From a virus: a DNA stretch of 64,000 nucleotides. Of the stretch, positions 40,215 to 64,000 are shown in pieces. Both the position numbers and the translations under genes were made by a program. Under the pieces are notes generated by a model that did not search any database, was not told where the DNA came from, and saw only the letters and a list, made by a program, of their open reading frames with translations. Each line of letters opens with the position of its first letter. Position 1 is the first letter of the stretch. The stretch is from IMG/VR virus record IMGVR_UViG_3300049846_002100, positions 24,942-88,941 of that record; one strand, given 5' to 3'.

Positions 40215-43160
40215 TCACACCTTCTGGACGAACTTGAACGAGCCCTCGTTGCGGTTGGGCTCAGACGCGAACCGCGCGCGGATCCCATCATCCACGCCCT
40301 CGTCGTACCCCACCCATTCAAGAACCGCGCGGACCTCGTCCACCATGGTCTTAACGATGCGGGGCTTCTTCTCCAGCGTTTGGCCGAGGATGCCCTCATC
40401 GAGGCAAGGCATTCTCTCGTTGAAAGACTCGATCAGGGCTGCGTTGAGCGCTTGCTCGATCTCGCGCCCGACCATGTTGTTGGCCTTCTCCGCGAGGTCG
40501 GCCAAATTGTAGTCCTCCGGGCTCTGATTGGCTTTACGCAAGTGGATCTTGAGGATGTCGATCCGCTCTTGCGTGGAGGGGAGGTCGAAGAAGAACCGCT
40601 CATCCATACGGTTCACGAACTCGACCGGCAGAGTAGACAACGAGTTGGCAGTCATGACGAGGCAGACCTGCGCCTTCGTCTCCTGGATCCAGGTAGAGAG
40701 GATGCCGACGACGCGAGCAACAGTGCCCGCATCGCTCTGAGAGCTGGAGTGGGTGCCTGCGAAGCTCTTCTCGGCCTCGTCAACCCAGACGATACAGTTG
40801 TGTGTGACTAGACCATTGGCGATGAAGGAATGTGTGTCATCTCCTTCACATGCAAGGTCATACACATCTTGGTTACCCACCGATTCAACGCTGGTAACCT
40901 TGACCCAACGACACTCGGCATCGAGAAGGTGTTGGAGATCCGCCCCTGCATCTCCGAAGATACGAGCGTAATTCTTCAGGTGTCTCTCACTCACCGGCAC
41001 GTGCCCGTTTTCATAGGACCAAGTCACACCGCTTGAAACATCGATGTTCTCCCACATAACACCCGAAGCTTTACGAACGTCGTGCAGAAGACGACCACAT
41101 GCGAAACCCATACCTCGATCGAAGCCGATCTCGGAGGAGGTTACGTGTGTAGCTTTGACGTTCTTCTCAATCAAGAACTCCTTGAGAATCGCTGCCAGTG
41201 CAACGGCACGGGTACCGGTGACTTCCAAATTTGGCATGTCAAACTTTGAAGGTACAACTCCCAAAGACTGGATTAGCTGGCGTGCCAGAAGTTGACGAGC
41301 GTGCCATTGCATCGAATGCTTAACAGAGAGAGAAATCTTATCGGGTTGGATACACCCGTCTGCATCGATCCACCCAGCAACGAACGCCGCCCGTACCTGA
41401 GGTGGGGCGGATAGAATGCTCTCGCGTGCCGACCGTAGAAACTCAGCCGCAAGCTGATTCACGACAACGGTCGTCCAACATGGTTTGAAGTCTGGGTCTT
41501 TGCTCAAACCATGCAGGGGTGGCAGCTCCGTTTGATCATGAAGGTAACGTTTAGGTTCGATACCGAAACTCTCTGAGACAACGCGTTCGAAAGCCCCTAA
41601 CAGTACCGTAGAGGTGTTCGTGAACCCGATTCCATCGTTTGCCCCAATAAAACCATCGCCTTCAAGGGCTCCGAGGACCCAACCCAGATCAGTAGACCAT
41701 CTTACCGGTAATCGTGGTACGACGGCATCACGGAACCCACCGCCCCCACGGCGGAATTCAACTTCCCCGTTCCGGTCGTAAACACGCATCCCCTTCGGAT
41801 GGAACCGAACACAATCCTCGTTGCCTTCGTACTTGGCCGTAGGTACTGCCATCATATCGCCGGGTGACAGCTCATCCGTACGAACCCACTCGGGCATCCC
41901 GCCACGCATCACATAGTGGAGGTGGTTTGCCGTCGCATTCACATAAAAACCGTTGGCAGCTTCTACCCGAAATGCCTCTGCCTTTCGGCGCGTGACGGTA
42001 TGTACCCGTGTGGTCTCAACTCGAAGTGTTCGCTCATTCCAGCATTGGACATGCAGCTCCTCATTGGATCCAGAGACGCTATCTTCCCAGAGAGAAGCAA
42101 TGGGTCTGCATGTGCCGTCTGCGAGAGTGACCAGTGTTTCCCCGGTCACACACGGAGCGAGGGATTCGATGATCCGGAGAGCGCGATACGCGTTGCTCTC
42201 GGATTCGCCGACACGCCCGCCTTGCAGGCGACCAAGCTCCAACTGGACTACGGGAAGACCCCACAGAGACCCAAGGCACTTCGTCGCGAGGCTCTTGCCG
42301 CAGCCCCACACGCCGACGCAGAGGACACCTCGGGGAGGTTTGAGCCCGTAAAGCTTGCCTTCAGGCGTCCAACAGGCACGAGTCTTCTTCGCCCATGTCT
42401 TGAACCTGTGCGTACCGCCCAAGTCACCCATCGTGAACTTGGTCGTGTCCACGTACTGAAGCAGGTCAGTTTTGTGGATCTGACGCCGACGGAACTCCAG
42501 GATGTGGGCTGGATCGATCCGAGGGTTATCGGGGTCTTCTTCGCGAGTGCGAATCACCGATTGAGCGATGGCGCTGTGAATCTCGAACCGCGTGAGACCC
42601 CTGAAGAGATCGGAGATCCCGGGAGGCACGGGCATGGTCATCTTGCTTGCGGCCACGCGGATGATCTCTTCGATCTCCTTCTCGCCCGGGCCGGGATCGT
42701 GGACGACGCTGATGTACCGCTGAAGGTTGTGGGGGATGAATTTTTGGGACCCCACGAAGATCAACATCTTGATCGTGTGCACGTTGTTGTGCACCTGGTG
42801 AATGAAGTTGAGCACACGACGCTGCACGTGCTCATCCCGCAACCACCGCTCGGGGTCAGTGATGATGTAGAAGTTGACCTCCTCCTTTGGATCGGCCTTG
42901 TAGGCTTCAATCAGGAGATCGTGGATGTCCTTCCCGCTGTCCTTGTGTTGTTGCGACTTCCAATCGCCAATGTGTTCGGAGAGCGGTCGGATGCCGAACG
43001 CCGCGTTGAACACCCAGATGTTCTTCGCGCTCTTCTTCAGGCTGCTCGCGAGAGAGATGAGCGCTTGGTCTTCTTCGTCGGTGACGTAGTAGATGACGCG
43101 GGTGAGGGACCGGATGAGAAATAGGAGGTCGGACTTCTCGGATGCCTTGTCGGATGCCAT
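40215..43160 (-). CDS. Ycf46-like AAA+ ATPase interrupted by an intein
   Basis: 981 aa including a 452-aa intein; 529 aa after splicing. Start taken at ATG 43160, where a GGTGTAGA motif lies 9 nt upstream (the open frame reaches 43190). N-terminal non-ATPase domain (LLFLIRSLTRVIYYVTDEED, KMLIFVGSQKFIPHNLQRYI), then Walker A GVWGCGKS at 283-290, Walker B IVWVDEAEK directly after the intein, sensor-1 region VCLVMTANSL, Arg finger region NRMDERFFFDL and sensor 2. The order matches the Ycf46/Vps4-like AAA family. Encoded with DUF1257 and DUF2997 proteins, as in bacteria that keep this gene set. Function in phages unknown. Confidence 0.85.
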   Translation of the reverse strand: MASDKASEKSDLLFLIRSLTRVIYYVTDEEDQALISLASSLKKSAKNIWVFNAAFGIRPLSEHIGDWKSQQHKDSGKDIHDLLIEAYKADPKEEVNFYIITDPERWLRDEHVQRRVLNFIHQVHNNVHTIKMLIFVGSQKFIPHNLQRYISVVHDPGPGEKEIEEIIRVAASKMTMPVPPGISDLFRGLTRFEIHSAIAQSVIRTREEDPDNPRIDPAHILEFRRRQIHKTDLLQYVDTTKFTMGDLGGTHRFKTWAKKTRACWTPEGKLYGLKPPRGVLCVGVWGCGKSLATKCLGSLWGLPVVQLELGRLQGGRVGESESNAYRALRIIESLAPCVTGETLVTLADGTCRPIASLWEDSVSGSNEELHVQCWNERTLRVETTRVHTVTRRKAEAFRVEAANGFYVNATANHLHYVMRGGMPEWVRTDELSPGDMMAVPTAKYEGNEDCVRFHPKGMRVYDRNGEVEFRRGGGGFRDAVVPRLPVRWSTDLGWVLGALEGDGFIGANDGIGFTNTSTVLLGAFERVVSESFGIEPKRYLHDQTELPPLHGLSKDPDFKPCWTTVVVNQLAAEFLRSARESILSAPPQVRAAFVAGWIDADGCIQPDKISLSVKHSMQWHARQLLARQLIQSLGVVPSKFDMPNLEVTGTRAVALAAILKEFLIEKNVKATHVTSSEIGFDRGMGFACGRLLHDVRKASGVMWENIDVSSGVTWSYENGHVPVSERHLKNYARIFGDAGADLQHLLDAECRWVKVTSVESVGNQDVYDLACEGDDTHSFIANGLVTHNCIVWVDEAEKSFAGTHSSSQSDAGTVARVVGILSTWIQETKAQVCLVMTANSLSTLPVEFVNRMDERFFFDLPSTQERIDILKIHLRKANQSPEDYNLADLAEKANNMVGREIEQALNAALIESFNERMPCLDEGILGQTLEKKPRIVKTMVDEVRAVLEWVGYDEGVDDGIRARFASEPNRNEGSFKFVQKV
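40797..42152 (-). other. intein in the Ycf46-like AAA+ ATPase
   Basis: 452 aa, residues 337-788 of the precursor. Splice junctions are Pro-|Cys (CVTGETLVTLADGT) and VTHN|Cys (extein CIVWVDEAEK). Block A and B residues (VNATANHLHYV with His) and the C-terminal HN are present. LAGLIDADG-type homing endonuclease motifs: LGALEGDGFIG and VAGWIDADGCI. It interrupts the Walker B strand of the host protein. Confidence 0.9.
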
Positions 43161-43169
43161 CGAGAGGGC

Positions 43170-43177
43170 TCTACACC
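43170..43177 (-). promoter_or_regulatory. GGTGTAGA start-proximal motif, AAA+ gene
   Basis: Exact GGTGTAGA on the minus strand, 9 nt before ATG 43160, preceded by GCCC. Determines the start codon choice. Confidence 0.55.
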
Positions 43178-43213
43178 GGGCACTACGCACTCAACGCAAT
43201 GCCGGGGAAAGAG

Positions 43214-49784: not shown

Positions 49785-52700
49785 TCAAACGTTCATCATC
49801 ATGCGGAGCGCTTCTTGATGGTCTTCCACCGCCATCCCACGTCCGCCCGCGGAGTTGATGGCGTTCATGTTGGAGATACGCCGAGACGTGAAGTTCACCG
49901 AGGCCACGAACGGCTCGAACAAGGGGTTGTCTCGGTTTTTCAGGTTGCAGAAAACCGTCGTCCCGTTCCGCCGGTGGTCATCGTTGAGATAGGTTGTCGT
50001 GATGATGTCCGCCGACTTCTCACAATTGTGAGAGAGAAGTCCGGCTGTCGCGTATTCGTGGTCACCCGACACTTCGAGGTCATACACTCGCGCCGTACCC
50101 CAATCCGCAAGAACCATAACACGTTGTGGTTTGGTTGTTTCATGAAGATAACGAAGCGTATCCAGATCGTTACTTTTGGACCTACGCAGTGTTTGCAACA
50201 TGGCAGCTACAGCCCCATCACTGACGAGGCTGTCTTTTCGTGTTGCTAGCTTGGCCAAAGCACTCAACACTTTTCGAGGAAATACATAAGTACCTTTGTA
50301 CTCGTTGTAGATAGCCGAGAACAACGATCCCACGGGCCAGTTAGTTCGATCACCAGCCTTTTCGGACGTATGTGCGGCTGCAATGGATGTCATCAACTTC
50401 GCTTGCTTCGCCTTTTCGGTAAAACCGATGAGGGCCGCGAAGCGCTTGCGGCTAGATCGCGATCGAACACGCAGGATCCATCGATCATACTCACGGCCGT
50501 TCAATGATGTAGTACCATAGGTGAGTGTTGTGTCGATACCGAGATCAGTCATTAGTAGCTGTGTTTGCCGTAGCGTTGATTCGTGAACGCCCTTGAGGCC
50601 CAACGCAAGAATTCCTTGGTTGTTAATCGAACCATCCGTGTCCCAAAGACCTCTTAGAAATGCTAGAACACAGTCACGAGGTGCTTCTAGGATGCACGGT
50701 GGTAAACCAGGCTGCCGGTTGACACCTAGTTGTTCAAACCAACGATGCAGAGCCTTGCTGCTTTTGCGCATATCGAAGCTACCCGATCGAGAAGGTGACT
50801 TCGACAAGGTGATGTCCTGTGAAAAACAGGTTACGAATGAAGATAGAAGACGGCCCATGACGGCCAACTCCTTACGATTCCCAGTGAATCCGATCGTGTC
50901 AGGCTCAAATGTGCCGTCACCAACGTGGGCCCCGAACAGGTAGGCAAGATCCGTCGTGAGATGTCCCGGCGAGGTTAGCGCAACACCCTTCATACCGGTA
51001 GGCTTCTCCCATTTGTGGAAGTCAAGTGTCGGCAACACAGGCGGCTTGTTCGGGAAGGGGCGCGTTCCGAAATCGCATAGCAAATAGTCTGAAAGGGTCA
51101 GGTCTTGAACGTGTTTCCAACTGACAACACCATCGTTGAGGATTCGAACGCGGTGGTTCCCAGTTACTTGGACGCGTACGCCCCGATCCGTCCAGAGATC
51201 GAAAACATGGCGAATACCATTATCGAACCGCGTGAGGACATCCTTCCATCCCGTGCGACTCCACACATGATCTCCAGGACCAACAGATTCAATTGTACGC
51301 AGCCCAGACGATGTCTTGACCAAGGTACCTTCGGCCAAGCACTCGTTCGCGTATGTGAGGGCGTTCATCTTGTAGCGACCCTCGTTCTTGTTCGCCTCTT
51401 CCTTACCCTGGCGGTTGATTTGAAAGAGCATGAGAACAGGAATACCCTCACCTTGGTTGAAGTGGAGGGCGAGCTTCTTCGCATCTCGGATGATCGAGTT
51501 CAGCTCGACGACGTAGTCCTTCGACCGCTTCTTCTTGCGGGCCTCGATGAGCTGACCGTGGTCGAGAACGATGAGGCCGATCTCCATCCGCTTGTGGAGA
51601 AGCTCGGCTTCTAAGCGAATGTCGTCGATCGTGATGTCACGATCGGGGGACCACACCTGGAACGCTCCGTAGTCGGGGTTCCTCTGGAAGTCCTTGATCA
51701 CGTCCTGAAGGAACACCTCCTCCTTCGGGTCGAGCTGCCCGTCACGGAACTTGCGGTAGTCGAGGCCAGCAGCATGTCCACCGTTCTCGTCGAGCCGCCA
51801 TCGGGAGTTTGCCGAATGCATCGTGTACGCGACGCGCCGGAGTTGCCGGTAAGGCATCTCGAAGCTGCCGTACATCACGTTCGAGCGGTACCTGGTAACG
51901 AGGTTGTAGCACCAGTTCATGGCGAACATGGTATTGTGCGTCACAATATCGTTCGCGACAAATGTGTGATGTCCAGGAACGGACAGATCGTAGGTCATCT
52001 CCTTCCCACGGAGCATGATACCCTCGACTTGTTCCCAGGAGAGGTCACCGTCGAGGACCTTTCGCACTTCGGAGTTCGGTAGAAACAAAGCTATGGTATC
52101 GGCTTGAGCTGAGGTTCTACACTTCGTCGTGTTCGCGTAGCGCCAGCGCTCCACACCATTCGCTCCCTGCCACCGGATCTTCATCCCGGAAGGAATGAAG
52201 TCAGTAGGGAACACGCGGTTATCGGTATAAGGTAGACGTGAGGCGAGCGTTGCGAACAAATCCTCCTTACCGATGACGTGGATTTTCTCGACGAACCTGC
52301 GCTTCGACGGATTTGTCACGACCCGAACGGTGTGGAATGTATAAGGCTTACCCTTGTACGTAGTGTCCACCCTCGTCACTGACGACTGAATGCCGAGACG
52401 CAAGAGGAGGGATTGGATATCCTTGCACAGGTCGCGGCTGGTAGATGTATAGGTGATGTCGTTTCTCTTGCAGAACGAGTCCCGTTCAACACGCTCGTGA
52501 TCTCCCGTGTGACAGGAACCGTCAGTTGACCAGAGAGCCCCCAGAAAAAGAGCGATCTGCTCGTCAGGAAGCCCAAAGAAGTCCCACGGCACGTGTTTGT
52601 CAGCCGCTAGACTTCCGAACAGCCCCGTATCTTCGAGCAGGACGCGTAACAGCGAGGTCATCTCGCTGTTACCGTTCCCGAAGCTACGGCTCACCCAAAC

Positions 52701-53873
52701 AAAGGGTGCCCGGTCTGATGGGAATACCTCACGGAACGTAGGTGTTTCGTAATCTGCCGCTCCTTCGACGAGTCCGAGGTCTCGAAGGCACTCCTTGAAG
52801 TCCTCGCGGATCAGATCGTTTGAAGCTGTGAACGTAAGATCGAGCCCGATCGACCCGTCCCCCAGCAGGTACCCAAGGACCTTGACCTCGGCGTCCGTAT
52901 AAAAACGTTCAGGGACACTTGCCTGCATGATCGCAGGAACGGCAACCCAATCCCCAGGGCGCAATTCGTCGAGCTGTCTCCAGCCCGCGGGCGTGAAGAA
53001 CTTGTGGTTCCCGGTAGCTCCAATGCTGCGCCCCGAGGTGAGAGTCAGATCGTAGACCTCTCGCACGCCGTTCTCGACGAGGTGTGACGTTTCCGCCCGG
53101 ACAAGCCGATGCGTCTCCCCCTCGCGATCGAGAGCTGTGACGATTGGAAGCTCTCCGCTCTCGTACAGCTCGTGGATCGTCCTTCGCCTGTTCGTCCGGT
53201 GATCGAAGATCGTGGCATCGCCGCTTAAGCACTTCAGCTCACCTGGGTAAGCGGCGTGGACCCAAAGCTCGCCCTTCTTGGCACCGTGGCAGACCTTGTC
53301 GATCTCCTGTAGGCCGGTGAACTTACCCCAGACCTTGTCCTTGTTGAGCTTGGCTTCTTCGTACTCGTTCCAGACGAGCTGCCCGTCATCACGGATGTCG
53401 CCGAACGTCTGAGCGTTGTAGTCCGTAAGGATCAGATCATTCGCTTTGGCAGCGAAGTGTTGGAGGCCATCGCGGATCCCTTGCTTCCGCTCCCCCTCGA
53501 TCTCCAACCCCTTGGTGATGATCTCCTGAGACTCTTTGAGGAGCGCCACCGCTCGGATGCGGTGCTGCTCGTCGAGCGCATTTTCCAAGAGGTGTTTGAA
53601 GTTGGAGCGGTAGAAGACAGGCACCGACTCCAGGTCTTTGATGCGCTCAACGACCTCGGTGTCCTTGAGGCGCTCGAAGTAATCTGCGATCGTCGCCGCC
53701 GCGGGCACTTCCAAGCGCTGTTGGAAGTACGTGACAACGAACTGAAAGAGCCGTTGGTCATCCCCCCGGTTCCACTCATACTTCGACGAGATGAGCCGCT
53801 GAAGGTTGAGGATCAGGTTCTCCTGCGAGACCGACGACTCGAAGTCGATGATATTGCGAAGAAGCTGCTTCAT
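49785..53873 (-). CDS. replicative DnaB-type helicase with two inteins
   Basis: 1362 aa; about 490 aa after removal of two inteins (433 and 439 aa). N-terminal domain (LQRLISSKYEWNRGDDQRLF) with a helical hairpin; RecA-type core with Walker A (HAAYPGELK|TMFAM), IGLIVLDHGQLIEARKKK (Walker B and following), VPVLMLFQINRQGKEEANKN (motif H3-like), and ANE|CEKSADIITTTYLND. All conserved helicase motifs flank the inteins. Moves along DNA and unwinds the fork. First ATG overlaps the stop of the presumed loader gene. Confidence 0.92.
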   Translation of the reverse strand: MKQLLRNIIDFESSVSQENLILNLQRLISSKYEWNRGDDQRLFQFVVTYFQQRLEVPAAATIADYFERLKDTEVVERIKDLESVPVFYRSNFKHLLENALDEQHRIRAVALLKESQEIITKGLEIEGERKQGIRDGLQHFAAKANDLILTDYNAQTFGDIRDDGQLVWNEYEEAKLNKDKVWGKFTGLQEIDKVCHGAKKGELWVHAAYPGELKCLSGDATIFDHRTNRRRTIHELYESGELPIVTALDREGETHRLVRAETSHLVENGVREVYDLTLTSGRSIGATGNHKFFTPAGWRQLDELRPGDWVAVPAIMQASVPERFYTDAEVKVLGYLLGDGSIGLDLTFTASNDLIREDFKECLRDLGLVEGAADYETPTFREVFPSDRAPFVWVSRSFGNGNSEMTSLLRVLLEDTGLFGSLAADKHVPWDFFGLPDEQIALFLGALWSTDGSCHTGDHERVERDSFCKRNDITYTSTSRDLCKDIQSLLLRLGIQSSVTRVDTTYKGKPYTFHTVRVVTNPSKRRFVEKIHVIGKEDLFATLASRLPYTDNRVFPTDFIPSGMKIRWQGANGVERWRYANTTKCRTSAQADTIALFLPNSEVRKVLDGDLSWEQVEGIMLRGKEMTYDLSVPGHHTFVANDIVTHNTMFAMNWCYNLVTRYRSNVMYGSFEMPYRQLRRVAYTMHSANSRWRLDENGGHAAGLDYRKFRDGQLDPKEEVFLQDVIKDFQRNPDYGAFQVWSPDRDITIDDIRLEAELLHKRMEIGLIVLDHGQLIEARKKKRSKDYVVELNSIIRDAKKLALHFNQGEGIPVLMLFQINRQGKEEANKNEGRYKMNALTYANECLAEGTLVKTSSGLRTIESVGPGDHVWSRTGWKDVLTRFDNGIRHVFDLWTDRGVRVQVTGNHRVRILNDGVVSWKHVQDLTLSDYLLCDFGTRPFPNKPPVLPTLDFHKWEKPTGMKGVALTSPGHLTTDLAYLFGAHVGDGTFEPDTIGFTGNRKELAVMGRLLSSFVTCFSQDITLSKSPSRSGSFDMRKSSKALHRWFEQLGVNRQPGLPPCILEAPRDCVLAFLRGLWDTDGSINNQGILALGLKGVHESTLRQTQLLMTDLGIDTTLTYGTTSLNGREYDRWILRVRSRSSRKRFAALIGFTEKAKQAKLMTSIAAAHTSEKAGDRTNWPVGSLFSAIYNEYKGTYVFPRKVLSALAKLATRKDSLVSDGAVAAMLQTLRRSKSNDLDTLRYLHETTKPQRVMVLADWGTARVYDLEVSGDHEYATAGLLSHNCEKSADIITTTYLNDDHRRNGTTVFCNLKNRDNPLFEPFVASVNFTSRRISNMNAINSAGGRGMAVEDHQEALRMMMNV
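50025..51341 (-). other. intein 2 in DnaB
   Basis: 439 aa, residues 845-1283. Junctions ANE|Cys and LLSHN|Cys. Typical start CLAEGTLVKTSSGLRTIES, block B NHRVRI, LAGLIDADG-type motifs FGAHVGDGTF and LRGLWDTDGSI, C-terminus GDHEYATAGLLSHN. Located in motif 4-type sequence near the DnaB-b insertion site known from other organisms. Confidence 0.92.
51933..53231 (-). other. intein 1 in DnaB (Walker A)
   Basis: 433 aa, residues 215-647. Junctions GELK|Cys and VTHN|Thr, exactly between Lys and Thr of the Walker A motif. Start CLSGDATIFDHRTNRR, homing motifs LGYLLGDGSIG and LGALWSTDGSC, C-terminus PGHHTFVANDIVTHN. Matches the DnaB-a type insertion site. Confidence 0.92.
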
Positions 53874-54773: not shown

Positions 54774-55085
54774 TCAGGAACGAGTATGGGATAGCGTGTT
54801 TTCAGCCTCGTCGCCGTCTGCGTCGACCCACTCGATCGCAGCCACCGCCAGGGCGGCCACGATCACCATCTCGTGCCGGAATCGCCTCGCCGTCCAAGGC
54901 CAGTGCACTGCCTGTCCCACGTGCTTCGTGATCAGAGCGATCCAGTCGTTCGGCCCGTTGTGTTTGTCGTGTTCTGGGTTGTCCCAAATGCGGTTCTGAC
55001 GCCGCCTCTCTTCGCGGATCTCGGCGAAGATGCCGTCTTGATTGCGCGACCCGCTCCGCTGGTTTCGCTCGTTGTGGGCGGTCAT
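54774..55085 (-). CDS. MazG-like small protein
   Basis: 103 aa. Pattern of the phage MazG-like/NTP-pyrophosphatase-type proteins: FAEIREERRRQNRIW, WIALITKHVGQAVHW, MVIVAALAVAAIEWVDADGD. The metal-binding EExxE/ExxD residues of active enzymes are only partly present (the first EExxE-type position reads KHVGQ), so enzymatic activity is uncertain. Its last codons overlap the start of the next gene upstream/downstream in the replication operon (ATGA at 55082). Confidence 0.6.
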   Translation of the reverse strand: MTAHNERNQRSGSRNQDGIFAEIREERRRQNRIWDNPEHDKHNGPNDWIALITKHVGQAVHWPWTARRFRHEMVIVAALAVAAIEWVDADGDEAENTLSHTRS

Positions 55086-58000
55086 TTGTTCTCCTTCATC
55101 ATACGGAGGAGTTCGCGCGTGGCGTTCCCTCCCGCCTCGTCCTTGTTGAATGACAGCGCCCCAACAGCGGCTTCTCCAAGCACCTTATCCACGAGATTCT
55201 TCTTGCTCCCGAGGAGCTGAAGCACGTGATCGTCGATGGTCTTGTCGCTCTTGTACTTGCCCTTGGGGCGCTTTGCGACGATGTGGTAAGCAACGACCGT
55301 GTCGTGGATCGAACCGATGCGGATCGGCCGACCAAGGAGCTGTACGTACGTGCCCCACGACCAGGGGGCATCGTAAAAGACGATGGCTGACGCTGCCTGA
55401 AGGTTGATCGCCTCGCTGCCTGCGTCGGTGATGAAAATGATCTTGGTGTCGGACTTCAAGTCCTGAAACGCCTGTTGGGCCTCACGACGTTTGACATCAT
55501 TCTCTTTGCCGGTGATGCGAACGCTCTTGACCCCCGCAGCGGTGAGCACCGATTGAAGGCGACCCACTAGCTTCTCGAACCGCGTGTACACGATGACCTT
55601 CTCGTCATCGAGTTCGCCCGTGATGAGGTCAACAAGGGCCTCTTCCTTCGCCCCCTTGTCCTTCACCTTCACGGACTCATCCTTGAAGAGCCCGACCGCG
55701 ATCTCCTGCCCCTCCTCAAATCGAAGGAGGTGGAGGGAATCGACGACCTGTTGGCAGTAGATGAGGGACGTGAGGGCGGCCGTCTCTTGGTACTCCTTGG
55801 TCTCCCCGTCGCCGAGTTCGAGAACACCCGAGAGGGCCTCGGCGTACTTGGTGTCCTCGCTCGGGGACATCTCGCAGACGATCTGCCGCGTGATCAACTT
55901 CGGCAGCTCACTCGAAACCATGTGCTTCTGCCGACCAAGGAAGAAGGGGTCGATGATCCTGCGGAAATGGTCGAGGTTACGGTAGCCAACCACTACGGGG
56001 ACTTTGCGTCCTCCCCCGACGGGCTGGAGTTTCACCACGCAGAACTCGTCCATGAACTTCGTCTTGGTGGCGAATATCGTCGGCTGAATGACCTTGTAGA
56101 TCGAGAACCCCTCCATGAGGTTGTTCTTCAGAAGCGTCGCGGTGAGCCCATAGCAACGCTTCGCTCGATCCGAGAGCTGGCGGCAGACCTGCCAGGTCTT
56201 CGTGCCCGTGTTCTTGAATGCGGTGCAATTGGAAACGAGTGTACCGTTGGCAAAGTAGTTGTGGTTACCATCAACCTCGATGTCATACACGAACCTCTTG
56301 TTTGTAGACCGCGGTAGCCAGGGTTCAACGGAGACTACTTGATCCTCAACGATCCCGCGAAGAGGTTCGGTTTTGAAACTTTTCACGCCCAGCACCGGAG
56401 TCCCCGCTGGCCATTTGTACTCAACGCCTGGCAAGGCCCCCGGCAAAAGAGCCAGGAACCGTTCTGCCGCCTCAGCCGGCAAGTAGATGACCGAGTAGTG
56501 CCCCTCTTTTCTCGACTTGGTTCGAAGTACACGTGCTTCTACGTCCCATCGCCAGCGCAACCAGCCTGCCAGAAGCTCGTTTTCTTCATGCGAAAACCCC
56601 TCGGTATGAAGGGTAATCGTTCGACGGACGGTCCCGTCGGTAAGTGTTTTCGTGTCGAGGCTCCCATCGTCGCTGTACCAGATGGCGAGACCAAGTGGAC
56701 CGATCTGATCAAGAAGAGAGACGCTCAACTTTCTCTTTACTCCGTCGTGTACACCCCATGACGCGAGACGGCTCGTTAGGGCTATGTTGCCGTTGAGTCT
56801 AAAGCGGCACATCCGTTGCTCACCGGACTGCAACTCTGTTTGGTAGAAGCTGATATCAGAAACCCCGAGGGGTTTTAGAAGGTCCCTCTTGAACTCAAGG
56901 TATGAGGCTTGTTTGATTGAATGCCCCATACAAATCCCCCAACAAACACGTTGCGGGTGTGAAAGACTTGCGTCGCCGAGGAGAGATCCAAGGATCACCT
57001 GAAGTTGATCATCAGAGGGTATGTCTTCAACGAACATGGCGGTCTTCTTTCCGGGCTTCAGAGTGTTCGCCCGGAAAGACTCCCCTCGTGTATTGTAGAA
57101 TACATGTGAAGGCGTAACGTTGACTACGCCAGCGAAACGAAAACCAATCTTCAGGAGGCTCTCACGCCGACTGTGGGTTAGAGGCTTGCGGAACCAATTG
57201 ACCACACGCTTTTCTTCAATAGAGCCCGTCTTCCAATTCATGGATAGGACACTCACGGGTAGCCTCTTGCTCACGATTCGCCCGATGAGTTCGGTGCTTC
57301 CGTCGGCTAATAGAATCGGGGTGTGGTAGTCAAAACACTCGTCGTACGTGACAACGAGGCGGGAGATGTTCGCGGTGATGCGATCGAGCAAACCCGGGCT
57401 GACTGGCTTCTTCGGGTCCGGCTGCCCGTTCGGCAGCAACGGACGCTCGCCGCCCACGTCCCAATCCCGCACGAGGATGGCGTAGTTCACGAGCAAGATG
57501 GCCTTGCGCGCGTTGGGTCCCGTCGGGGCCGCCGCCCATTTCTCGTACATCGCTTTGCGCTCCTCGGGCTTGCCCGAGACGACGTACGTGTCGATCCCAA
57601 CCGTGAACTTCTCAACCTCGCCGGCCCACTGGCGGAGCGCGCTCTTCGGAGTCACGACAATCGCCTTGTTGTCAGGCTCCTTCTCCCACTGGTAGCAGAG
57701 CGCCGAGAGCAGTTGCAAAGTGTTGTGATTTACGATCCCATTGCCAACGAAAGAGTGGTTTGGGTCATCGACCTCAATGTCCATCACCTCGGCCGACCCT
57801 GTCGTCACGGTCTTCACTGGATCGTAGAAGTAGCCGTGCCGAACAACTTCCTCTACGCACTTAAACTCAGCAGTTGTAACGAGCCCGTAGACAGAAGACA
57901 CTTCGAGAAGTTGCCTCAGAAATCGATACGTTGGATTGCGATGACCCAGGCATACATGGCTCAAAGTCGACTCGAAACTCCTGCCGAATTGCTTGAGTCC

Positions 58001-59314
58001 TGAACCTTTACGTAGTCCATTGGCCCCTTGCATCGAGACCATTTCTAGCAAACGACCCTTGAGACCGCGAACCAACTCGACAGCGTGTGGCACAACATCC
58101 TTGTTGGGATTGGAAGCTTCACTCAATGAGCCGGCCAGAAGTTGGCGTTTGCGCTCACTGACGAATCCGATGCTTTGCTGAAATAACCGCGCCTGATCGC
58201 CACAGAGGGTGAGGCGCCAGTATGTATGGTCGCACCCTTGAATGTGCTTAGGAGACACGCGAGCAACGAGGCCAAATCCTAGGAGGAGTAACTGAATGTC
58301 ATGAATCAAACGATTGGAAGACGAAGACAGTTCGATGTTACCGCAGTGAGGGTCCACAGACCCCTCACCTTCAAACACCCCCTGAAGGAACCCTTTGACT
58401 GACTCCCGTGTGGACTTGAAGATGACCCACGGAACTGTCTTCGTACGGGAAGTGCTAAAGTCTACCCCATGAAGTCGGAGAAATTCTCGAATTTGAACGC
58501 TGCTCACTCCAATGAGGGAGTCTTTTGACTTGGCGTTATCATTCCCCTCCCACCCAAATACAGAGCGGAACAGTCTCCGGATATCGGTATGGGAGTCAGG
58601 GTTCGTATCCACATACTGTGTTACATGGATGTGGTAACGGTCTCCAATCCAAGCCTCGGCGACAATATACCCCATCAAACGGGCAAGGTCTGGGTCCATA
58701 CGGCATGGAAGAGTGTATCTCTTCGCACTCGCGACTGATGCCACTTCCGTCGTAAGTTGGGGCTCGATGTTCGAAAAGCCTTGCGCCTTTCGGTCAATAC
58801 ACAAGAAGTCTCCCGGCTGTAGCTCTGGCAACGTGCGGAATACTTCAGCACCTTGCTTGGTCCGAACCAGCACGGGATGACTGTGGGAGCCTTCGATCGA
58901 AAAGCCGTGATGTGTCCTCACACGCAACGTAGGACGCACCCCATCCCAATAAAAACGCCGTACCGAGGCCCACCGTTCTCCCGTCCAGACTTCACATGGT
59001 TGTGTGGGCTCGTGGAACGTCTCGGGCGTGAGATCACCTTTAGGTCTTAGATCGCCAATGCATTGGTAGCCCTCACGTGTCATTAGCCGTGTCTCGGCCG
59101 TGACACACTTGCCGATCCCCGTGGCGTCCCCGAGGATCATCCGGTTCATGACGACGAGATGGTAGATGCCCTGAACCTGGTAGTACCGCAGCTTGAAAGG
59201 GACGGTCTTCCCGTCGAGGCCGACGATCTCCGTCCGAAGCATCGGCGTAGGACGCAGAGAGATGGTTGTCGACGCCCGCGCCTTCTTCAGCTTCTCGTAA
59301 GTGTCATCCGCCAT
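55082..59314 (-). CDS. DEAD/SNF2-type helicase with two inteins
   Basis: 1410 aa; about 578 aa after removal of two inteins (462 and 370 aa). Superfamily 2 motifs: Q-region FKLRYYQVQGIYHLVV, Walker A GDATGIGK|T, motif Ia AIVVTPKSALRQW, DE-box VVTYDE|CTAFKN, motif III YGLTATLLKN, motif IV-type KVIVYTRFEKLVGRLQSVLT, motif V FITDAGSEAINLQAAS and motif VI LLGRPIRIGSIHD. An SF2 motor of SNF2 type, probably a branch-migrating or remodelling helicase for replication, recombination or transcription. First gene of the replication operon, with a GGTGTAGA motif 9 nt before its ATG. Confidence 0.9.
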   Translation of the reverse strand: MADDTYEKLKKARASTTISLRPTPMLRTEIVGLDGKTVPFKLRYYQVQGIYHLVVMNRMILGDATGIGKCVTAETRLMTREGYQCIGDLRPKGDLTPETFHEPTQPCEVWTGERWASVRRFYWDGVRPTLRVRTHHGFSIEGSHSHPVLVRTKQGAEVFRTLPELQPGDFLCIDRKAQGFSNIEPQLTTEVASVASAKRYTLPCRMDPDLARLMGYIVAEAWIGDRYHIHVTQYVDTNPDSHTDIRRLFRSVFGWEGNDNAKSKDSLIGVSSVQIREFLRLHGVDFSTSRTKTVPWVIFKSTRESVKGFLQGVFEGEGSVDPHCGNIELSSSSNRLIHDIQLLLLGFGLVARVSPKHIQGCDHTYWRLTLCGDQARLFQQSIGFVSERKRQLLAGSLSEASNPNKDVVPHAVELVRGLKGRLLEMVSMQGANGLRKGSGLKQFGRSFESTLSHVCLGHRNPTYRFLRQLLEVSSVYGLVTTAEFKCVEEVVRHGYFYDPVKTVTTGSAEVMDIEVDDPNHSFVGNGIVNHNTLQLLSALCYQWEKEPDNKAIVVTPKSALRQWAGEVEKFTVGIDTYVVSGKPEERKAMYEKWAAAPTGPNARKAILLVNYAILVRDWDVGGERPLLPNGQPDPKKPVSPGLLDRITANISRLVVTYDECFDYHTPILLADGSTELIGRIVSKRLPVSVLSMNWKTGSIEEKRVVNWFRKPLTHSRRESLLKIGFRFAGVVNVTPSHVFYNTRGESFRANTLKPGKKTAMFVEDIPSDDQLQVILGSLLGDASLSHPQRVCWGICMGHSIKQASYLEFKRDLLKPLGVSDISFYQTELQSGEQRMCRFRLNGNIALTSRLASWGVHDGVKRKLSVSLLDQIGPLGLAIWYSDDGSLDTKTLTDGTVRRTITLHTEGFSHEENELLAGWLRWRWDVEARVLRTKSRKEGHYSVIYLPAEAAERFLALLPGALPGVEYKWPAGTPVLGVKSFKTEPLRGIVEDQVVSVEPWLPRSTNKRFVYDIEVDGNHNYFANGTLVSNCTAFKNTGTKTWQVCRQLSDRAKRCYGLTATLLKNNLMEGFSIYKVIQPTIFATKTKFMDEFCVVKLQPVGGGRKVPVVVGYRNLDHFRRIIDPFFLGRQKHMVSSELPKLITRQIVCEMSPSEDTKYAEALSGVLELGDGETKEYQETAALTSLIYCQQVVDSLHLLRFEEGQEIAVGLFKDESVKVKDKGAKEEALVDLITGELDDEKVIVYTRFEKLVGRLQSVLTAAGVKSVRITGKENDVKRREAQQAFQDLKSDTKIIFITDAGSEAINLQAASAIVFYDAPWSWGTYVQLLGRPIRIGSIHDTVVAYHIVAKRPKGKYKSDKTIDDHVLQLLGSKKNLVDKVLGEAAVGALSFNKDEAGGNATRELLRMMKENK
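56228..57337 (-). other. intein 2 in the SF2 helicase (DE box)
   Basis: 370 aa, residues 660-1029. Inserted after Asp-Glu of the DE(AH) box: TYDE|Cys, SN|CTAFKN. Start CFDYHTPILLADGSTE, homing motifs LGSLLGDASLS and IWYSDDGSLD (LAGLIDADG type), C-terminus GNHNYFANGTLVSN, where the penultimate residue is Ser instead of His. Confidence 0.9.
57722..59107 (-). other. intein 1 in the SF2 helicase (Walker A)
   Basis: 462 aa, residues 70-531. Inserted between Lys and Thr of Walker A: GIGK|Cys, VNHN|Thr. Start CVTAETRLMTREGYQ, block B with GSHSHPVLV, homing-type motifs GYIVAEAWIG and QGVFEGEGSVD, C-terminus DPNHSFVGNGIVNHN. Composition is AT-richer than the extein. Confidence 0.9.
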
Positions 59315-60911: not shown

Positions 60912-61151
60912 TCACCGTGCCCTATATGTGGTTCGTCCGCGCGAGGGATCGTAGGCGCTGACCTCAACCGTAATGCGATCGCTAGGGAGGATACGGATGT
61001 AGAACTGCCGCATCTTGCCAGCGATCGTAGCGAGCACGGTCAGACCGTTATCACACTTCACCTTGAACATCGTGCTGGGAAACGCTTCCTGCACGACCCC
61101 TTGAAGCTCCAGTGTGTCGCCCTTTGGGGCTTTTTCTCTGTTCGGTCGCAT
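60912..61151 (-). CDS. infA: translation initiation factor IF-1
   Basis: 79 aa, close to the 72 aa of bacterial IF-1. OB-fold signature almost complete: [20 protein letters not shown], then [40 protein letters not shown] and TTYRAR. It binds the 30S A site during initiation. CGGAGG lies before the ATG. The gene is divergent from 61217 across a palindrome of GGTGTA motifs. Phage IF-1 has been noted in some very large phages and could tilt initiation toward phage mRNA. Confidence 0.93.
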
Positions 61152-61525: not shown

Positions 61526-61549
61526 TGCGCGAAAAGGAGTGCGTGTTCC

Positions 61550-62269
61550 ATGTACGACACTGATGCGATTCAATCGTCGGACCTCACGTACGTGAGGAAG
61601 GTCTACCTGTGGTTCTTCGTGGGAGTCCTCGCCGCTGCTGTCGCAGCGTGGACCTCGATCAATCTCGGGCTCCCCGAGACGATCATGGTTAGCGGTCAAC
61701 CGACGGCAGTGCCTCCTCTCGTCGCCCGCGTCCTCGAACACCCGGTCATCACGATCCTCACCGCTCTCGGGCTCACGTTCATCGCGGGCCTCTTCCGAAA
61801 GACCCCGCCGATCAACGCCATCGCGTACTTCACACTCACCCCGCTGCTCGGGTTGATTATGGGGCCGAGCATTTGGGCCGCTGAGGTCATGGCGCACCGA
61901 GACCAGACGTTATCGGGGCATCCGGTTCGCGACGCGTTGTTTCTCACGGTCGCAGCATTCGGATCGCTGACGGGCTACGTCTTCGTGTCCAAGAAGGACT
62001 TCTTCGCGTGGGGCGGCTTCCTCATGAGCGGGCTGTGGGTCCTGATCGTGGCCAGTATTCTCGGCATCTTCATCGGGTCGAGCGTGCTCGATCTCGCGCT
62101 GGCCAGTGTAGAAGTCATTCTGTTCCTCGGGTTCGTGCTCTATGACACCTCGAAGATCCTCCGGGGACCGCAGGATGATGCGATTGGCGACGCGCTAAAC
62201 CTCTTCCTCGACGCGGCCAACCTATTTCTCGATATCCTGCGTATCCTCACCGCAACGAAGAAGGACTGA
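61550..62269 (+). CDS. Bax inhibitor-1 family (YccA/YbhL-like) membrane protein
   Basis: 239 aa. Up to seven hydrophobic segments: YLWFFVGVLAAAVAAWTSIN, VITILTALGLTFIAGLF, INAIAYFTLTPLLGLIMG, FLTVAAFGSLTGYVFV, FAWGGFLMSGLWVLIVASIL, FLGFVLYDTSKILRG and FLDAANLFLDILRIL. The last two form the signature of the family (YDT..I followed by a final L..aanlFLdiLrIl). Bacterial relatives act as calcium or pH-linked channels and YccA inhibits the FtsH protease. A phage copy could protect phage proteins from FtsH or alter host membrane signalling; this is inference. AAAAGGAG before the ATG. Confidence 0.85.
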   Translation: MYDTDAIQSSDLTYVRKVYLWFFVGVLAAAVAAWTSINLGLPETIMVSGQPTAVPPLVARVLEHPVITILTALGLTFIAGLFRKTPPINAIAYFTLTPLLGLIMGPSIWAAEVMAHRDQTLSGHPVRDALFLTVAAFGSLTGYVFVSKKDFFAWGGFLMSGLWVLIVASILGIFIGSSVLDLALASVEVILFLGFVLYDTSKILRGPQDDAIGDALNLFLDAANLFLDILRILTATKKD

Positions 62270-62270
62270 G

Positions 62271-62693
62271 TCAGAGGCCGAGCGTCTTGAACAACGCTTG
62301 GTTGTAGATCCCAAACGAGCACTCGGGCCACGCGATCCTCTCGCGCGGCACCCACCCCACCCATGTCCCATCCCTCACGAACGGGAACGACTCCGCAGGC
62401 CACTTCCGGACCGCCGTCACCTGGAATGTGCACGAGTAGAGCCCGCCAGGCGGACACGGCCGGTGAAACACGGGCACCGTACCCGCCTCGATACCCGTCT
62501 CCTCAAGCAACTCACGGAGAACGGTCCCCACAAGCGACTTGTCGGACGGCTCCAGCTTGCCGCCCGCGAGGCCAAGGTCCGCGTAGTTGCCCCGTCGAGA
62601 GACGGCCGGCACGTGACTGAGGTCTGCGCTGATCAGGATCGCACAAGCCGTGTACGGCTCCGGCGCCCCGGCAAGATCCAGGAGTGTCCCCAT
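62271..62693 (-). CDS. NUDIX hydrolase
   Basis: 140 aa from ATG 62693 (MGTLLDLAGAPEPYT). NUDIX box AGGKLEPSDKSLVGTVLREL followed by LEETGI has the expected Glu positions for metal binding, then PPGGLYSCTFQVTAV and WVPRERIAWPECSFGIYN. Hydrolyses a nucleoside diphosphate-linked substrate; which one is not clear. The motif at 62766 points to an alternative start of another frame (MNDPKSAASQ), so leader or frame of this gene is not entirely settled. Confidence 0.85.
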   Translation of the reverse strand: MGTLLDLAGAPEPYTACAILISADLSHVPAVSRRGNYADLGLAGGKLEPSDKSLVGTVLRELLEETGIEAGTVPVFHRPCPPGGLYSCTFQVTAVRKWPAESFPFVRDGTWVGWVPRERIAWPECSFGIYNQALFKTLGL

Positions 62694-63255: not shown

Positions 63256-64000
63256 CTAACCCCTCGTATCTACTCTTGCTTCAGCAGCTCGCAGCGTGTT
63301 GAGCAAGAGATGGGCGATGGTCAACGGGCCAACACCTCCCGGAACAGGCGTGATCGCACGAGCTTTCTCACGCACTTCATCGAAGGCCACATCCCCTACG
63401 ATCCGGGTCGTACCTTCAGGCGTGGGGACACGGTTGATGCCCACATCAAGGACCACAACACCCGGTTTGACCCATCCACCACGGATCAGCTCGGGGCACC
63501 CGGTGGCAACAACGAGGACATCGGCCTCCCGGCATACCGCAGGCAAGTCCCGCGTTTCCTTGTGAGCCATCGTGACCGTTGCCTCCCGTTGAAGAAGGAG
63601 CTGCGCCATCGGCTTGCCCACGATGTTGCTGCATCCAACGACGACTGCACGTAGGCCGCGAAGTTGGACGCCCGCGGAGTCCAATAACACCAGGCAGCCC
63701 ATCGGAGTGCAAGGCGTCAGATTTGGTCGGCCGATCCCAAGTAGCCCCACGTTGATCGGATGGAACCCGTCCACGTCCTTCTCGGGGGCGATTGCGTCCA
63801 GCACGCGATCACGACGGATGTGTCCAGGCAACGGGAGCTGAACGAGGACCCCATCCACATGCGGGTTGAGATTCAGGCTTGCTAGGAGCGACAGGAGAGC
63901 GGCTTCCGTCGTCGTGGCTGGCAGCGTGTGAAGCTGGCTCACCATACCGACTTCCTTCGCCGCTCGCTCCTTGCTACGCGTGTAGACGATACTTGGGGGG
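63256..64000 (-). CDS. folD: methylene-tetrahydrofolate dehydrogenase/cyclohydrolase FolD (5' end outside)
   Basis: Runs off the right edge: at least 247 codons visible, open upstream of the ATG at 63945 (PSIVYTRSKERAAKEVG). Family features: VDGVLVQLPLPGHIRRD, APEKDVDGFHPINVG, PCTPMGCLVLL, then the Rossmann part VVVGCSNIVGKPMAQLLL, DVLVVATGCPELIRGGWVKP, VVLDVGINRV, ITPVPGGVGPLTIAHLLLNT. It interconverts methylene-, methenyl- and formyl-tetrahydrofolate and supplies the one-carbon unit used by ThyX at 35958. Confidence 0.93.
   Translation of the reverse strand, partial: PPSIVYTRSKERAAKEVGMVSQLHTLPATTTEAALLSLLASLNLNPHVDGVLVQLPLPGHIRRDRVLDAIAPEKDVDGFHPINVGLLGIGRPNLTPCTPMGCLVLLDSAGVQLRGLRAVVVGCSNIVGKPMAQLLLQREATVTMAHKETRDLPAVCREADVLVVATGCPELIRGGWVKPGVVVLDVGINRVPTPEGTTRIVGDVAFDEVREKARAITPVPGGVGPLTIAHLLLNTLRAAEARVDTRG

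Follow-up and report, generated by a model that had tools for sequence, protein, structure and literature searches.

What would a huge tailed phage gain from a Bax inhibitor-1 (BI-1) protein? The question is raised by P0001, which is encoded in the window analysed here, a stretch of 64,000 nucleotides covering bases 24942-88941 of an IMG/VR virus record 88,941 bases in length (Table 1). P0001 matches the Pfam Bax1-I model (PF01027) from position 2 to 207 of 207 with an E-value of 1.3e-41 and 143.2 bits (cut-off 34.1), far beyond chance, and its membership of the BI-1 family, put forward in an original prediction made from the sequence and its open reading frames, is firm. The C-terminal signature on which that prediction relied is likewise present (YDTSKI, residues 198-203; ANLFLDILRIL, residues 223-233). 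At an E-value of 0.001 the sole NCBIfam match is the YccA FtsH-modulator model NF007765, at 61.8 bits against a cut-off of 353, and by this curated cut-off P0001 is not YccA itself. None of 29 aligned BI-1 proteins (20 from viral contigs or the window, at least 8 cellular) matched a PHROGs v4 family at an E-value of 0.001, with a best value of 0.27 for P0001; a RexB match (E 0.041, under its cut-off) was discarded as noise. P0001 is almost certainly a genuine, full-length BI-1 (TMBIM/Bax1-I) integral membrane protein of huge tailed phage origin.

Table 1 Features of the BI-1 locus and its surroundings (window coordinates).
Feature	Coordinates	Strand	Basis or detail
BI-1/YccA-like seven-helix membrane protein (P0001)	61550..62269	+	ATG start, 239 aa
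Shine-Dalgarno-like AAGGAG	61534..61539	+	sequence; ten bases 5' of the BI-1 ATG
Beta hairpin in the helix 1-2 loop (strands 43-47 and 50-54)	61676..61711 (codons 43-54)	+	AlphaFold2 model
Helix 3-4 loop in the lengthened stretch	61898..61921 (codons 117-124)	+	span comparison
Asp199, equivalent to YetJ Asp171 (di-aspartyl pH sensor)	62144..62146	+	phmmer alignment to 4pgw/6nq7
Asp221, equivalent to YetJ Asp195	62210..62212	+	phmmer alignment to 4pgw/6nq7
ORF of 102 aa	61217..61525	+	24 bases before the BI-1 start
Translation initiation factor IF-1 homologue	60912-61151	-	79 aa; PF01176 E 2.6e-21; phrog_30201 E 9e-24
Small NUDIX hydrolase	62271-62693	-	convergent with BI-1, one base from its stop codon
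FolD-like tetrahydrofolate dehydrogenase/cyclohydrolase	63256-63999	-	open at window end
Heavy intein load	49785-53873, 55082-59314, 40215-43190	-	

The phage evidence for the window's own kin consists of a baseplate family and a DNA polymerase, not of a terminase. The record also encodes a baseplate wedge family protein (phrog_6), a family A DNA polymerase, thymidylate synthase, DnaB-like and SNF2-type helicases, an endolysin-like ORF and an RNA ligase-like ORF, and these genes, with large related phage records that carry BI-1, bear out the original description of P0001 as phage-encoded. The baseplate family was found in seven of eight records tested (the window's, L188-L192 and a 543-kb record) and not in the eighth, the 60-kb L193. 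Neither the window's record (88.9 kb) nor G053 nor any of four further records yielded terminase PF03237, and G050-G052 gave only weak matches to it under the cut-off (E 0.002-0.008). A scan with the window's DNA polymerase returned records of 528,957 bases (L173, 67% identity in the best segment), 362,937 bases (L174, 57%) and 126,452 bases (L175, 57%). Among the 11 records retrieved through the polymerase or FolD, Bax1-I is present in three, which are the longest (529, 363 and 543 kb): the BI-1 proteins of the 529-kb and 363-kb polymerase relatives belong to the window's own subfamily, and that of the 543-kb record (L184) to another BI-1 lineage. The 126-kb polymerase relative, which may be a fragment, gave no Bax1-I match. 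The end of the window's record and the end of a viral contig of 43,820 bases (L183) have exactly 127 bases in common, the first 32 residues of the FolD-like ORF match the L183 end at 100%, and the two look like adjoining contigs of one genome.

Around BI-1, the window and its subfamily have no other conserved gene in common. The 102-aa ORF, which is possibly co-transcribed with BI-1, matched no family over the cut-off (best Pfam hit DUF1569, E 0.0099). The IF-1 gene is common to one of seven related records; its product is matched by 35 phage-collection records, some of them from very large phages. Matches to intein splicing and LAGLIDADG domains occur in all three of the intein-laden genes (Table 1), which encode the DnaB-like helicase, the SNF2-type helicase and an AAA protein. 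Between positions 59000 and 64000, a promoter scan gave 0 sites and a terminator scan 3, compared with 4.0 in shuffled sequences, and a tRNA scan of the whole window found none.

Phage BI-1 is not a one-off. A viral-contig scan with alignment A4 matched 429 stretches, 319 of which encode BI-1 relatives; the best 80 of these 319 were analysed as the viral set and the best 80 of 565 as the cellular set. Terminase was found over cut-off in 10 of 50 records (49 of the best 80, each at least 20 kb, and the window's), among them each of the 8 that are 200 kb or longer, and large tailed phages thus carry BI-1, while the remaining viral-contig records are not individually proven phage. The sheath family PF04984 was matched in 2 of the 50 at an E-value of 0.001, in one of them above cut-off. 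Scanning with the window's subfamily recovered six records (L188-L193, 60 to 529 kb), with matches that are 41-46% identical across almost the whole protein; the BI-1 proteins of L189 and L190 do not differ, and the subfamily comprises six distinct proteins including the window's. Single-protein scans of viral contigs and genome contigs, and a scan with the two-row alignment A5, confirmed no relatives.

Among named phages, tblastn with P0001 matched 2 of 50,697 INPHARED records, and neither match was accepted as a phage gene: that in MN585195 sits beyond an integrase and tRNA-Ser, beside tusDCBE, and that in MT835812 lies in an unverified record with ORFs that look bacterial in translation. 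The relative L058 used as query did reach gp332 of the cultured 440-kb jumbo phage Salicola phage SCTP-2 (MF360958, 3815-4486), which is annotated 'hypothetical protein' and matches Bax1-I at 98.7 bits. It shares the PF01027 match with P0001 at 21% identity and has Glu and Ser at the two Asp positions discussed below. L058 matched 11 records, of which MT835812 and MF360958 were looked at and the other 9 are unannotated and 2.9 to 24 kb long; two other BI-1 queries matched 9 and 2 records, with one looked at in each. As SCTP-2 was reached by one of four BI-1 queries of the phage collection, absences there are limited by sensitivity.

An AlphaFold2 model of P0001 (pLDDT 84.8, pTM 0.79, 29 aligned sequences) contains seven long helices. 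The seven hydrophobic segments originally described are borne out by the model, whereas a simple hydropathy scan (cut-off at a mean of 1.2 across 19 residues) detects six regions, the sixth helix being missed. Foldseek placed nine YetJ chains on top (E 5e-4 to 4e-3; next match 0.17), and in a second structural comparison five YetJ entries reached Z 12.0-14.6 over 176-186 residues, against Z 7.3 for the best non-YetJ fold. The structural check that had been proposed thus returned similarity, to YetJ, and the refuting outcome of no likeness in structure did not arise. Judged from the model, YetJ appears to be the sole fold clearly exceeding background, although the superposition is not tight (rmsd 4.6-6.1 Å). 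Bacillus subtilis YetJ (PDB 4pgr, 4pgw, 6nq7-6nq9) shares with P0001 the seven-helix fold and both di-aspartyl residues, at 20-23% identity in structural alignments; P0001 differs in being phage-encoded, in the predicted beta hairpin of its helix 1-2 loop and in a helix 3-4 stretch longer than in the compared cellular proteins.

The helix 1-2 loop, measured as the span of residues 38-70, is 33-35 residues long in the window's subfamily and 14 in both E. coli YccA and the Shewanella protein L105; with a median of 27 and values up to 39 in the cellular set (best 80 of 565), the length alone is not unique to the subfamily. The span of residues 101-133, across helices 3 and 4, is 33 in the subfamily, 22-28 in the cellular set (best 80 of 565) and has a median of 23 in the viral-contig set (best 80 of 319). 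With the N-terminus inside, which we take to be the family's orientation, loops 1-2 and 3-4 would lie on the same outer side of the membrane. The helix 6-7 stretch is short, with a span of 23 in P0001 as in E. coli YccA. Other large-phage BI-1 proteins from the viral-contig clades belong to the same Bax1-I family (two examples scanned), and many have both Asp residues, but their helix 6-7 stretch is longer (median 28 vs 23; best 80 of 319) and their helix 3-4 stretch shorter (median 23 vs 33) than the window's.

By alignment, P0001 has what appear to be both pore aspartates of a YetJ-type pH-gated channel (Table 1); YetJ positions 171 and 195 are named in the titles of mutant structure entries. 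The Asp199 equivalent is D in all 72 distinct viral-contig proteins (from the best 80 of 319). The Asp221 equivalent is D in 66 and N in 6 of the same 72, a count that is partly circular since Asp221 is part of one of the two viral search patterns; Asp199 is in neither. In the cellular set conservation is partly built in, as the search patterns contained both residues. A third position, Asp150 between helices 4 and 5, is Asp in 72 of 77 distinct cellular proteins (best 80 of 565); of the 72 distinct proteins from viral contigs (best 80 of 319), 38 have Ser or Asn there. E. coli YccA has Glu and Ser where P0001 has Asp199 and Asp221, and the two proteins are 31% identical in a pairwise alignment. 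The YccA likeness of the original prediction thus stands as regards descent, described next, but not as regards these residues, in which P0001 resembles YetJ.

Evolutionary relationships were examined in two quick trees with SH-aLRT supports, for which the program warned of long branches meeting. The first has 99 rows (49 cellular, 37 viral, 9 reference and 4 window-kin rows), with three proteins shorter than 190 aa left out and near-copies collapsed beforehand. Here P0001 and its 363-kb and 529-kb relatives form a clade (98, starred) inside a nine-row set (96, starred) that contains E. coli and Pseudomonas YccA, a YccA-type protein from an Aromatoleum plasmid, a Shewanella protein and two long-branched rows; E. 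coli YccA is among the nearest characterised proteins. For the seven-row fork that unites the phage clade and the four YccA-type rows directly, support is only 82, unstarred. Of the other 38 viral rows, 30 fall in a separate clade (98, starred) and 5 in another (95, starred), and L078, L054 and L184 lie elsewhere. The second tree, of 54 hand-chosen rows, groups 6 phage and 4 cellular rows in a 10-row set (99, starred) and places the six window-subfamily proteins on one side of a branch (93.7, unstarred). Holding all 24 viral rows of this tree together was rejected (p-AU 0.00715), and BI-1 was therefore captured by phages more than once. P0001 represents one of several independent captures, with its own phage subfamily, and the trees support a probable position beside YccA by descent. 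Between L188 and L189, 219 of 229 residues are identical (dN 0.028, dS 0.225, ratio 0.12), which shows purifying selection in this one pair of relatives.

Proteolysis genes accompany BI-1 in part of these viral records. ClpP occurs in 18 of 25 viral records, near-duplicates included, and in 16 of 16 large BI-1-bearing records outside the window's kin, some of them near-duplicates, both counts standing without a control set; in the window's subfamily it occurs in one of seven records, the window included. ClpP clusters lie within 6 kb of BI-1 in 10 of 42 groups and ClpA in 5 of 42, with one member of each identified by Pfam. We give the association no weight for the window, because of the one in seven, the lack of a control set and the fact that ClpP is already known in some jumbo phages (PMC7824862).

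We regard restraint of host FtsH as the leading reading of the main job of P0001, at a probability of roughly 40%, with an ion leak ranked second. During infection, P0001 would insert in the host inner membrane and restrain the host's FtsH protease, like its closest characterised kin, YccA. The intact di-aspartyl centre could sense or leak protons or cations, and protease control may then follow the energy state of the membrane. The benefit to so large a phage would be that its own membrane proteins and those of the host are preserved, keeping the membrane working for as long as infection lasts. In PMC9379554, YccA is described as degraded by FtsH and, when bound, as inhibiting FtsH action on other substrates. 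The same paper reports that TMBIM5, another family member, regulates AFG3L2, the FtsH relative of mitochondria, and uses its di-aspartyl motif to exchange Ca2+ and H+. FtsH restraint is taken as the likeliest job because of the descent beside YccA, which keeps a shielding of proteins from FtsH plausible. Since none of the 25 viral records examined has an FtsH peptidase domain, it is the host enzyme that would be targeted. We also count in its favour the NCBIfam match to the YccA model only, the YetJ fold, the whole-model PF01027 match, and the retention of the gene, as seen in several captures (p-AU 0.007) and a dN/dS of about 0.12.

The N-terminal tail may bear on the same relationship. Residue R16 of P0001 aligns with R22 of YccA, making the tail six residues shorter. 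FtsH begins degradation at a tail, which must be long enough, and a short one might confer resistance to it. By printed, unverified starts, the tail has 16-18 residues in L191-L193, 24 in L188 and 30 in L189; since the last two exceed the 22 of YccA, the short tail is not common to the whole subfamily. We know of no FtsH contact residue. Several observations count against FtsH restraint: the aspartates kept in P0001 point to ion handling, BI-1 has no conserved neighbour in the subfamily, the direct join to YccA has a support of only 82, and the phage link to proteolysis genes is limited in the subfamily to ClpP in one of seven records. As E. coli YccA lacks both aspartates, its job need not require them. 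The original prediction had further invoked the role of FtsH in lambda lysogeny, an analogy that finds no support here: a tyrosine integrase was found in none of nine records tested, several of them fragments.

The aspartates lead to a second reading, which we hold tentatively as a serious possibility: like YetJ, P0001 may let cations (Ca2+/H+) leak across the host inner membrane under pH gating, with FtsH uninvolved, and would tune ion balance or the proton-motive force while infection proceeds or ahead of lysis. P0001 retains the two di-aspartyl residues and matches YetJ best in fold, and di-aspartyl mutation abolishes channel function in YetJ, TMBIM6 and TMBIM1 (PMC9206080). On the residues, the case for an ion path seems no weaker than that for the YccA analogy. 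However, not every phage BI-1 protein retains the residues of the ion site: the second Asp is Asn in 6 of 72 distinct viral-contig proteins (best 80 of 319), and SCTP-2 has the Glu and Ser of E. coli YccA. The BI-1 neighbours scanned also include no lysis gene; the endolysin-like ORF lies about 42 kb away.

It is distinctly unlikely, though suggested by analogy, that the protein mainly blocks a host death response, stabilising membrane and proteostasis against abortive-infection systems that depolarise or permeabilise the cell. Viral TMBIM proteins block apoptosis in animal cells, and the fold is carried by eukaryotic viruses including poxviral vGAAP, the cytomegalovirus US12 family and giant-virus BI-1. 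Among its matches in BFVD, P0001 has a BI-1 protein of a tupanvirus (E 4e-4) and, at weaker values (E 0.0085 and up), proteins of the cytomegalovirus US20/US12 type. According to PMC4416878, purified camelpox viral GAAP forms a cation channel, and Asp219, the equivalent of YetJ Asp195, is needed for the anti-apoptotic effect; a haptophyte giant virus is reported to have a BAX inhibitor (PMC11953307). Repeated phage capture of BI-1 would also fit a protective role. Yet these viral proteins act in eukaryotic cells, and their likeness to P0001 comes from fold matches, not from a tree. No defence or counter-defence neighbour was identified near BI-1, and PADLOC gave no hit, which says little as the tool lists defence and not counter-defence.

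That BI-1 is a passenger host gene with no phage function is quite improbable and already disfavoured. BI-1 genes are common in bacteria, the gene lacks conserved neighbours between the window and its subfamily, and the 126-kb polymerase relative, possibly a fragment, is without it. Against this stand the phage-only subfamily and phage-only clades, the dN/dS of about 0.12 in one close pair, and the presence of BI-1 in the three longest of the 11 records found by other genes, the 543-kb one with a different lineage. That BI-1 is bacterial sequence at the edge of a contig wrongly called viral is a negligible prospect and was rejected: the gene does lie about 1.7 kb from the record end, beside NUDIX and FolD genes also found in cells, but that end has 127 bases in common with the end of the 43.8-kb viral contig, the 529-kb and 363-kb polymerase relatives carry the same BI-1 subfamily, the record has the baseplate family, and the gene's GC content (60%) is close to that of the window (59%).

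Among the open-access papers listed by our searches, judged from titles and the openings of abstracts, none was on phage BI-1. The main text of a huge-phage paper (PMC7162821) does not contain 'Bax', 'ClpP' or 'FtsH', and the text of a comparison of 224 jumbo phages (PMC7824862) does not contain 'Bax', 'YccA', 'TMBIM', 'BI-1' or 'FtsH'. Phage BI-1 has the look of a genuine phage tool, so far overlooked, with which the infected cell's membrane is managed. Going further, huge phages may have taken up BI-1 repeatedly for what also made it useful to poxviruses and cytomegaloviruses: it would be a transferable cytoprotective device that prevents collapse of the membrane and of membrane proteolysis until the phage has finished, through a restraint of FtsH that is coupled to ion sensing, and that thereby counters abortive infection. 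We consider this unlikely; if true, viruses of bacteria and of eukaryotes alike would control membrane proteolysis and ion leak as a general strategy.

Large tailed phages join the viruses known to carry TMBIM proteins, and FtsH and the membrane's ion state become possible targets of phage takeover. Because the cultured SCTP-2 carries a BI-1 under the label 'hypothetical protein', the idea is testable. The BI-1 membrane family occurs very widely, and whether ion leak or protease control is its primary function is unsettled; phage BI-1, repeatedly acquired and in some cases with and in others without the di-aspartyl site, offers natural material for separating the two functions.
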